From the NCBI GenBank assembly GCA_937872315.1, contig CALMST010000081.1, forward strand, positions 1 to 38,387: 38,387 nucleotides of DNA, in the 5' to 3' direction. The notes beneath the pieces were generated by a model, which saw only the letters and a program-made list of their open reading frames with translations, did not search any database and had not been told where the DNA came from. Positions 3,532 through 38,387 of the stretch are shown in pieces. Within the stretch, counting starts at the first letter, position 1, and the number at the start of each line of letters is the position of its first letter. A program made the translations under genes and the position numbers. The DNA is from an uncultured Ignavibacteria bacterium. Lineage in GTDB: Bacteria; Bacteroidota; Ignavibacteria; Tepidaquicellales; Tepidaquicellaceae.

Positions 3532-6500
3532 CTATCTCACTGGAATTATAATGCTAAACTCACTGCCTTCACCTTCAACCGTCTCCACCTTCAGTTCACC
3601 GCCATGCGCCTTTACAATATCATAACTCAGCGATAATCCCAACCCCGTTCCCTGTCCGGTAGGCTTTGTCGTAAAAAACGGCTGAAAGATTTTATCCATT
3701 ACTTTCTGCGGAATTCCGTTGCCGTTATCCTTCACGCTTATTTCAACTTTATCACCGGTATTCTTTGTACTGACTGAAACTGCCGGTTCATATCCTTCAG
3801 GATTCTGCTTCTTTTTTTCATCTACCGCATAAAACGCATTCGTAATCAAATTCAGGATCACTCTGCCGATATCCTGTGACACAACTTCCACATTTCCAAT
3901 ACTTTTATCAAAATCTGTTTTCATTGATGCATTGAAAGTTTTATCCTTCGCCCTGAGTCCGTGATATGCAAGGCGTAAAAACTCATCAGCTAATGCATTA
4001 ATATTTGTAGGTTCTTTAACACCGCTGCTCGAACGGCTGTGCTGAAGCATTCCTTTTACTATTGCCTCAGCTCTCCTGCCATGATGAATGATCTTGTTCT
4101 CATTTTCTTTAATGTCTTTTGCTATCGCGGCTGCATCATCAAAATTTCCTTTTCCAAGTTCCTCATTAAGTTCATCTATCAGTTCGGAATTCACTTCGGA
4201 AAAATTATTCACAAAGTTAAGCGGGTTCTGTATCTCATGCGCAATGCCTGCCGTCAGTTCTCCTAGAGATGCCATTTTTTCGGATTGTATAAGCTGTGAT
4301 TGTGTAGCGCGCAGCTCTGTCAGCGCATCTTCGGCGCGTTTTTTTTCAGTCTGCAATTTTATGAGATCGAGCTCAGCCTGTTCTGCATGTTTTTCAGCAA
4401 TTTGCAGATCATTAAACCGTGTAAAAGTCAGATTAAATACCGCTGCAAACCTTTCAAGCAGAAGTCTTGTTTCTTCAGGCTGCTCATACGGAGATGCCAG
4501 TCCGATAAATCCTTTGGAAAAAAAAGCTATTGTCTGAACTCTTCTCTTTTGTGAAAGACCAAGTTTGAAAGGAACTTTGAGCTCAACGCTTAAATGATGA
4601 AAATAATCTTCAAGTTCTTTTCCATGCATGTTAATTGTAAGAGATTTTTTTCTCTCTTTCCATCCGTCAAACATTTTTTTAAATGAATAGTTGTTATTCA
4701 TATTTGCTGTGAACATTCTGCTTACTTTAGTTCCGTCCTCATCCGTAATCCAGAATTCCGCATTCACATTATCATCTTTGACGATTCCGATGTAGAGCCG
4801 GTTTGGCTCTATACCTAAACTGATCAATTGCTTAAAAACAACCGCGGCAGTATCAGCAAGTTCATCACTCTTATGCATCGCAAGCGTCCTGCTTCGGATC
4901 CTTTCAAGCGCTGCTTCTATCTGCGCCTCCCTGGTCTGAGCTTCAGCTTTTTTCAGATCAAGAAAACGGGTATAAGTACGTTCAAATTCTACTGCAAAAC
5001 GGTATAGTATCTTTTTTTCTTCTGAAGTTAATTCTGTTTTTCGCATTACACCAAAGCAACCGTGCCTCATGAAAGCTTCCATATAATATAATCCGTCCCG
5101 GAAATGTTCCGGTTTAAATTTTTCAATGCCATCAAACAATTCCTGCCATGCGGCAAAATAATTTTCCACACCTTCGGGAGGTACTGTATAGGAATGAACA
5201 GGTTCATTGCTTTTCCAATCAACTAAACATTGCGCGGTGGCAGGCTCATTTCTGTCAAGTGGATAGCTAACAGCTTTGTTTTTAAAAACCGTTGAGCCGT
5301 TTATGCTTTCTTCCCAGATAGCCCAGAAAATGTGCTGATCATTTATTTCATCCGGCAGCCATAAAAAAGAAAAAGCTGAATTGAATCCAAGCAACTGAAT
5401 CTGCTCATGAAAAACCTTTAACGTATTATCCAGCTCTTTTGAATGCTGCATGATCATGCTCTGAGTACGGGTACGCTCCAGTGCTGCCTCAATCTTAGCT
5501 TCCCTTGCCTGCATTTCCGAATTTTGCAGGTCAAGAAAACGTGTGTAAGTCTGCTGGAAGACTTTTCCAAAACGCATGAGTGTTTTATTGTCTTCATTCG
5601 AATAAGGAGTACCCGAAAAATTCTCTATGTATAATCCGACATTATCCAGCAAAACAGTTGATATGGCAAGTCCCGGACAGGTAAGATAATATTCTAATGT
5701 TTCCTCCGGCACGCCGGGGATAAGCTTAAAAAGATCTGTATAAAATTTATTTTTTTCTTCAAATGAAAGTTGGTTGGTAAAGAAATCCATTCCTTTATCT
5801 TTTGCCTCAATAAAACTGTTCCAGTGCGGAGAATCAAAATATGGAATAGTAACTTCAAAGGGAGCGAAGTTTTTGTCAGCAAGCCAGATATGCATGTCAT
5901 CCCTGGTTTTATAATCTATAATAAATCCGCTGTGTTCAACAAAGATATTCAAAAGAACCAATTGTTCAAACACAACCTGAATTACTTCTTTAAGCTCTTC
6001 GCTTTTCTGCATGCCCATTGTTCTGCTTCTCACTCTTTCAAGCGCTGCTTCTATCTTTGCTTCCCTTGCCTGCGCTTCCGCCAGCGCAATGTCGGTATAG
6101 CGCTGATAAGCAAGCCCGAATACATTTTTAAAACGTTCAAGAATTTCGAGCTGAGCATCTTCCACTTTATTAAATGCAGAAATCCCCAAAGCTCCGGAAC
6201 CGATAGAAAAAAAATAATAAATGAGTATCGATGAAATTTCCAGGCGTTCATCAACTTTTTTCCCGTGTTTATACATGTATGATTTCCATTCCAGAAGTTC
6301 TTTACCGGTAAATTCCAAAACAGCAAAGGAATCTGATTTTTTCCTTATTTCTTCATTAAAGGAAATCAGTTTAGCATTGCCGCTTATAGGGACTTCAATC
6401 AATTCCGGTCCGGCAAAATCAGAATATGCATAATTCAGATATGTGATTTTTTCATCATCATAAATATTTATCTGAGCATTGCGCAAATCGGTAAAACCCA

Positions 6501-13574: not shown

Positions 13575-13635
13575 CTTCTATAGAATTGATTCAGCTAAAT
13601 ACAATTCTTAAAATCTAAAATCTAAAAAGGAATCT

Positions 13636-13810
13636 CAGTCTTGTCCAAAACGATTAATAAAATTTATTCTTTATCTGAATATAGAAAATCTAACCGATTT
13701 TCTTTTGAAAGATCAAAAGAAAGGTACTGTGTTAATAATCAAGTACCAACAACATACGCGTATGTTGTTTTAACAATTATTAATCTTATAAAATGTTTTG
13801 GTCAATACTG
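13636..13810. mobile_element. MITE-like element, copy B, with 9-bp target duplication
   Basis: The 175-bp element starts CAGTCTTGTCCAAAACG and ends CAAAACATTTT-type sequence in inverted orientation (AAAATGTTTTGGTCAATACTG), giving imperfect terminal inverted repeats of about 20 bp. Both outer ends abut AAGGAATCT (13627-13635 and 13811-13819), a perfect 9-bp direct repeat that looks like a target-site duplication. The interior has the family hairpin (TTTCTTTTG/CAAAAGAAA) and a 22-bp perfect palindrome at 13748-13769. It contains no transposase, so it would be non-autonomous. A caution: AAGGAATCT also occurs just right of copy C. Confidence 0.7.
13748..13769. repeat. 22-bp perfect palindrome inside element copy B
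   Basis: The half-site AACAACATACG is followed directly by its reverse complement CGTATGTTGTT. It replaces the core seen in copies A and C, so it is a copy-specific insertion or rearrangement in the middle of the element. With the neighbouring GGTACT/AGTACC pair it would fold into a compact structure. Confidence 0.8.
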
Positions 13811-13834
13811 AAGGAATCTGATAAAAAGAAAGAA

Positions 13835-14235
13835 ATGACTTTTCGGTAACAGTAAATCCCCCTGCAGAAATACTCTGGAAAAAATGGACAAGTCCTGAAG
13901 ATATCAAAAACCGGAACTATGCATCAGACGACTGGCATACTACAAAAGCTGATAATGATTTAAGAACCGGAGGAAAGATTTCTTCAAGAAAGGAAACAAT
14001 GGACGGGAGTATGGGCTTTGATTTCTATGGGGTCTATGACAATATTATTACAAATGAGCTTATTGAATTTAAACTTGGAGACGGCAGAAAAGTAAAAGTA
14101 AAATTTGTAAAGGAAAACAATGCAGTTAAAGTGACGATAATATTTGAAGCTGAAAGTGAGAATTCCATTGAACTGCAAAAGACCGGCTGGCAGGCAATAC
14201 TTGATAATATTAAAAAATATACTGAAACAGAGTAA
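13835..14235 (+). pseudogene. SRPBCC (AHSA1-like) protein with frameshift at the start
   Basis: One frame from about 13840 to the stop at 14235 encodes a near-complete SRPBCC/AHSA1-type protein: FSVTVNPPAEILWKKWTSPE, then NYASDDWHTTKA, LRTGGKISSR, GFDFYGVYD and the C-terminal GWQAILDNIKKY. Such proteins bind hydrophobic ligands in a helix-grip fold. The only sensible ATG (13835) is out of frame by one base: it reads MTFR-stop. Adding one T to the TTTT run at 13840-13843 would give MTFSVTVN and restore the gene. Two stops precede the frame at 13819-13824. The MITE-like element ends 25 bp upstream. The options are true inactivation, homopolymer slippage, or an assembly error. Internal initiation at 13999 would lose a third of the domain. 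Confidence 0.7.
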
Positions 14236-37943: not shown

Positions 37944-37980
37944 CAGTCCTGTCCAAAATGATTAATAAAAATTATTTTAA
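37944..37980. repeat. MITE-like repeat, partial copy D (left end only)
   Basis: CAGTCCTGTCCAAAATG followed by ATTAATAAAAATTA matches the left terminus of copy B with few differences. The hairpin and right end are missing. It is a truncated copy or solo end upstream of the hydrogenase operon. Confidence 0.65.
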
Positions 37981-38103
37981 TTGACCGCTTATGATCAACA
38001 GTAATTGATAATTTTTTTTTACCACGATTTATCACGAATAAATAGTATTACAATTTTTGGGAATGAGTAAAAATCTGTTTTAATCTGTGAATTGTCCTTC
38101 TTA

Positions 38104-38340
38104 CCAGAACGATTAATAAAAATTACTCTTTATCTGAATATAGAAAAATCCAACCGGCTTTCTTTTGAAAGATCAAAAGAAAGCCGGCAAAGAAAAATCT
38201 CCCTCTGGTGATAAATTGCCGGAAATTCATTCGCTTTGGCGGCAATTTATCACAGGAGGGTTGTTTTATTTCACAGCCCGGAATCTTTGATTCTGAAATG
38301 AATCTTAAACAAATATTAATTTTACAAAATGCTTTGGACA
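38104..38340. repeat. MITE-like repeat, copy C
   Basis: This copy shares the left part (CGATTAATAAAAATTACTC and onward) and right part (TTAATTTTACAAAATGCTTTGGAC) with copy A. It contains a perfect 14-bp stem CCGGCTTTCTTTTG / CAAAAGAAAGCCGG at about 38154-38187, and a perfect 12-bp stem GATAAATTGCCG / CGGCAATTTATC at about 38210-38251. The outermost left bases are diverged. No ORF in it is credible. Confidence 0.75.
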
Positions 38341-38387
38341 CCTTTAAAAAGGAATCTATCAAGAGAAAATAAAATACCTTTGAGTAA

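Follow-up and report, generated by a model that had tools for sequence, protein, structure and literature searches.

A MITE family with IS4-type ends in an uncultured Ignavibacteria genome, with a likely IS4/DUF4372 driver and a probable IS110 scar in one copy

Bacteria harbour MITEs, and also mobile cassettes derived from IS4 (e.g., MIC231); both are short, multicopy elements with IS-like ends which can be moved in trans. In the IS4Sa subgroup of the IS4 family the ends have the form CA------T, and the duplications measure 8-10 bp (De Palmenaer et al., 2008, PMC2266710); MIC231 is named as an IS4-derived mobile cassette in the same paper. Within the IS110 family IS621, ISPa11, ISPpu9 and ISPpu10 use REP hairpins as targets (PMC1525189). 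BrickBuilt, of Porphyromonas gingivalis, is a multicopy MITE with 23-bp tandem repeats (PMC4596501).

The repeats described here lie in a window of 38,387 nucleotides (the whole stretch of DNA analysed, contig C81 of a 4.56-Mb Ignavibacteria MAG which has 386 contigs and is 96% complete). They are a MITE family of a kind already known. Its ends are of IS4 type, its driver is likely an IS4/DUF4372 transposase, and one copy, copy B, carries a probable IS110 scar. The likeness to IS4Sa lies in the MITE ends, CA......T with a T at position 9 (CAATCTTGT, CAACTCTGT and CAGTACTGT fit CA------T), in the 9-bp duplications found at both the MITE and the IS4-type IS copies, which fall within the 8-10 bp of IS4Sa, and in a candidate driver with DDE_Tnp_1 and a YREK motif. 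The MITE differs from IS4Sa in having no transposase, and the comparison is made by ends, duplications and motifs. Like other MITEs and MIC231 it is short, has IS-like ends and occurs in many copies; unlike them it has a core unrelated to the interior of the IS, its long nested palindromes cross genera without the MITE ends, and copy B carries the IS110 scar. As with the REP-targeting IS110 elements a dispersed hairpin is hit at a constant position, in this case right after hairpin 1, but the hairpin belongs to a DDE-type MITE and not to a REP. BrickBuilt, compared by description, is likewise a MITE family with many copies whose interior is structured; the tandem repeats are its own. Beyond the reach of the first reading of this DNA were the family of the driver, the IS110 origin of the core of copy B, the spread of the palindromic core outside this genome and the distinct sequence beside copy C.

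Copy B is a MITE of 175 bp without genes, one of the family (13636-13810, + strand). Its terminal inverted repeats, CAGTCTTGTCCAAAACG on the left (13636-13652, + strand) and GTTTTGGTCAATACTG on the right (13795-13810, - strand), are imperfect, with 14 of 16 bases inverted-complementary, and the copy is bracketed by the exact 9-bp target duplication AAGGAATCT (13627-13635 and 13811-13819), as the earlier note had described. The interior contains hairpin 1 with the arms TTTCTTTTG and CAAAAGAAA (13699-13722, + strand), which is a conserved element of the family core, followed by the putative IS110-family end (13724-13780, + strand), the final 13 bp of which fit the MITE right end too. Inside this part is the perfect palindrome AACAACATACGCGTATGTTGTT (13748-13769). 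The 9-mer AAGGAATCT occurs four times in the window, at 6326, 13627, 13811 and 38349. A tRNA was the sole match in an Rfam scan of the window.

When the flanks of copy B are joined with one 9-mer they align across the junction to the homologous loci of two relatives, G001 (L067, 72% over 1013 bp) and G023 (L072, 66% over 421 bp), neither of which has an insert. Since both loci are uninterrupted across the insertion point, AAGGAATCT is host sequence. Empty sites in relatives, suggested earlier as a check, thus exist, and identical repeats at syntenic sites in distant relatives, named earlier as evidence against a mobile element, were not seen. An AHSA1-like gene (13811-14235, + strand) has the copy in its first codons and is interrupted near its start, with a frame shift after KESDKKKEMTF; the downstream frame matches AHSA1 (PF08327, E=1.2e-15). 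The gene may have been broken either by the insertion or by later decay.

The family comprises about 40 copies or fragments in its own genome. A BLAST query with copy B matched 71 pieces there, and profile scans of the fetched stretches gave about 40 left and about 25 right ends. Copies with two ends are mostly 151-357 bp long, contain no transposase gene and have imperfect inverted ends of the type CAATCTTGTCCAAAACG...GTTTTGGACAGTACTG around a palindromic non-coding core. The flanks of the 19 two-ended copies were scored over 9 bases per side with zero shift allowed; a copy was excluded if its right end meets the end of the contig or repeat X (see below), because no right flank exists there. 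The flanking 9-mers match at 7 or more of the 9 positions in 14 copies, and at all nine in six (AAGGAATCT, ATAAAATAC, GAAATTGAG, TGAATTTTC, GAATAAATT and AAATACTTT), to be compared with a mean of 1.05 copies and a maximum of 6 at 7 or more positions when flanks were shuffled among copies (20,000 shuffles). Five of the 19, copy A included, have no clear duplication. The length of the duplication is constant at 9 bp and its sequence differs from copy to copy, each with its own; the concern that AAGGAATCT might be constant in all copies is not borne out. With copy-specific duplications and with AAGGAATCT being host sequence, copy B and its relatives are therefore a MITE family, i.e., short, multicopy, and provided with terminal inverted repeats and 9-bp duplications.

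The odd core of copy B (13724-13780) is, judged by its sequence, the end of an IS110-family element. The 81 bp at 13700-13780 of the window are 98% identical to G002:C141:269-349. In this contig of a relative in the same genus the matching sequence comes after the end of an IS110-family gene (DEDD transposase, PF02371, Transposase_20, E=1.2e-9; a fragment at the contig edge) and before the MITE hairpin. The junction AAAGAAAG^GTACTG is common to copy B, G002:C141 and G002:C83, in the last of which it sits at the contig end, and G001:C461 has a shortened IS110 remnant at the same point. The element enters the MITE right after hairpin 1, its putative hairpin target being TCAAAAGAAAG. Three contigs of G010 (L217-L219) finish in the same IS110-type end, each adjoining CAAAAA, with sites of the form CAAAAA^GG, which suggests a short fixed target. 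The sequence AAAGAAAGGTAC in L201 (G013) was considered as a further IS110 insertion and is instead a natural variant of the stem. An IS110-family element landing in the hairpin of a MITE would be a parallel to the REP-targeting members of the family.

It is unlikely that the exchange went in the opposite direction, so that the core of copy B is no IS110 remnant and the G002 IS110 element acquired its sequence from the MITE. The IS110 pieces beside MITE copies in G002 are fragments at contig edges with borders which are never whole, and this would leave room for such an origin, but related ends (GGTACTGTATTAA... and GGTACTGTGTTAA..., then a palindrome) are found away from MITE hairpins in G010 (three copies), G006 and G002:C5, and the one in G002:C5 adjoins an IS110 gene fragment.

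We hold with considerable confidence that copy B is a MITE moved in trans by an IS4/DUF4372 transposase and that its core is an IS110 leftover. An IS4-family DUF4372 transposase from a full-length IS of the same lineage would act in trans on the MITE ends, and staggered cuts at insertion would leave the 9-bp duplications flanking the MITE. Copy B would have landed in this way in the first codons of the AHSA1-like gene. An IS110-family element would have inserted right after hairpin 1 of copy B, or of its parent copy, and would later have been lost almost whole, probably via deletion at TTTTAA(A)CAATTAT, which is shared, so that about 57 bp of its end remained as the odd core. Copy B enters the MITE right end within TTTTAACAATTAT, which is common to the IS110 end, and this points to a deletion at this short stretch of homology. 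The order of events and the deletion route are inferred.

The likely driver of the MITE, to judge from end sequences and protein domains, is a transposase of the IS4 family in which DDE_Tnp_1 comes after an N-terminal DUF4372. A search with the DUF4372 model found IS elements with these two domains in 45 of 294 genomes of the class; the proteins score 241-253 bits against NCBIfam transpos_IS4_1 (NF033592), for which the cut-off is 115. Full elements are 1.31-1.37 kb long and have ends CA...TGTCC, and exact 9-bp duplications are present at L079, L080, L118, L119, L121, L126, L133 and L141. The YREK motif YKGRWNIEAFFKMLK was read by eye in the candidate driver L077. The end beside a DUF4372 gene in G002 (L148, E=6.6e-21) equals the ends of the MITE copies of that genome over the first 20 bases, CAACTCTGTCCAAAACGTTT. 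Allowing up to 2 mismatches this 20-mer has 25 sites in G002, where the reversed pattern used as a control has 0; the 20-mer has 0 sites in G029 and in G044. The IS4 gene of G002 is cut by the contig end and one end of the element is visible, with these 20 bases in common with the MITE ends there; past 20 bp the two diverge, and the MITE is therefore not a simple internal deletion of the G002 IS4 element. Through end sequence and duplication length a MITE family of uncultured Ignavibacteria would thus be tied to an IS4/DUF4372 transposase.

As no DUF4372 gene was detected with the DUF4372 model in the assembled MAG of the own genome, we infer that the MITE would be mobilised in trans by the DUF4372 transposase. 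This absence says little, because multicopy elements break short-read assemblies, and such elements may be missing from this MAG. The two DDE_Tnp_1 matches of the own genome (C283 and C164) were rejected as drivers; they are broken genes of other types with other end sequences. The earlier note had proposed a MITE family driven by a transposase elsewhere, and this is still the best reading in view of the copy-specific duplications, the uninterrupted sites and the match of the ends to the IS4/DUF4372 element of the same genus. The transposase gene with similar ends and 9-bp duplications which it anticipated has its counterpart in the DUF4372 IS elements of the class and in the end match in G002, and was not found in the own genome.

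There is a small chance that another transposase with similar ends is the driver, e.g., that of ISAs1 or of another family making 8-10 bp duplications, and that the likeness to IS4 is convergent. CA-type ends together with 8-10 bp duplications are not unique to IS4, and the failure to find the IS4 gene in the own genome would agree with a different driver. ISAs1, which these ends and duplications suggested, was rejected because an ISAs1 transposase was found in none of 42 lineage genomes, and the identity of 20 terminal bases to an IS4/DUF4372 element within G002 speaks against any such driver.

Copies A and C of the window are longer relatives of copy B without clear duplication. The former (38-389, + strand, 352 bp) has a long palindromic core, both ends and flanks with no matching duplication, and gave no match to phage and plasmid records. 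Ends shared with copy B had been claimed for A, C and a partial copy D; they were recovered at both sides of A and at the left of D, whereas copy C (38095-38340, + strand) starts at 38095 with a degraded left end and has its right end cut at GGACA, and copy D is a 33-bp left-end fragment (37944-37976, + strand) which stops at 37976.

On its right side copy C passes at GGACA into repeat X (38341-38387, + strand), which reaches the contig end. Repeat X follows GGACA again where contigs C223 and C376 of the own genome end, and contigs C44, C144, C160 and C1 terminate precisely at GGACA. Repeat X has the look of a multicopy element attached at a single point to the right ends of MITE copies. It was met at three contig ends in all and not in viral contigs. 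The stray AAGGAATCT 3' of copy C (38349) is explained by its position inside repeat X; the earlier fear that it belonged to a larger repeat was right in this respect, and wrong in so far as the 9-mer is no constant part of the copies. An IS110 identity of repeat X is unsupported, the IS110 gene of the own genome (C158) having different ends, and a 74% match in G008 was set aside, as it sits in coding-like sequence.

The palindromic core is found in 16 of 59 relatives, among them a second family of the order and other genera. The exact 51-base left-end pattern had no match in the genome contigs collection; a degenerate pattern for the hairpin picked up 12 stretches, in MAGs of Ignavibacteria, and the named relatives from the search with the family-core pattern are all Ignavibacteria. 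In the second family the core occurs without IS4-type ends, the 20-mer being absent from G029, the one genome tested. It is very improbable that the repeats are immobile structured sequences (REP-like or terminators) spread by recombination, with 9-mers that arose by chance or belong to a larger unit: a core in a second family without MITE ends and several copies without duplications would fit this, but 14 distinct 9-bp duplications, each peculiar to its copy and placed at the same two boundaries, do not, nor do the uninterrupted homologous sites.

In 18 distinct sequences the four outer pairs of hairpin 1, left free by the search pattern which fixes the inner stem, are paired in 47 of 72 cells against 27 +/- 3.5 in shuffled ones, a figure which kinship among the 18 sequences can inflate. 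Pairing of the stem would seem to be kept by compensatory changes. Copies B and A fold better than shuffled sequences (z = -6.3 as DNA, -4.2 as RNA), and the core could possibly act as a terminator or in a protective role. The mosaic of a shared palindromic core, IS4 ends and an IS110 scar would mean that small repeats can be built from the parts of unrelated elements. A doubtful extension is that the nested-palindrome core is an order-wide repeat whose folded form is under selection, and that in one family of Ignavibacteria it was caught between ends of IS4 type and is now mobile as a MITE, with hairpin 1 as the landing site of IS110; if true, a dispersed structured repeat would be acted on by two unrelated transposition systems.

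Two minor observations were made on related repeats. In L106-L117, which are stretches from Ignavibacteria MAGs, GTTACTTTCTTTTGANNGATCAAAAGAAAGTAAC precedes nested palindromes; this repeat is common in another family of the order and has no recognisable IS4-type ends. Two MITE copies on contigs C254 and C376 of G000 (L011 and L012) have about 20 bases of left flank in common, CCTGAACCGAATAAATT, and have perhaps inserted at the same place of another repeat.
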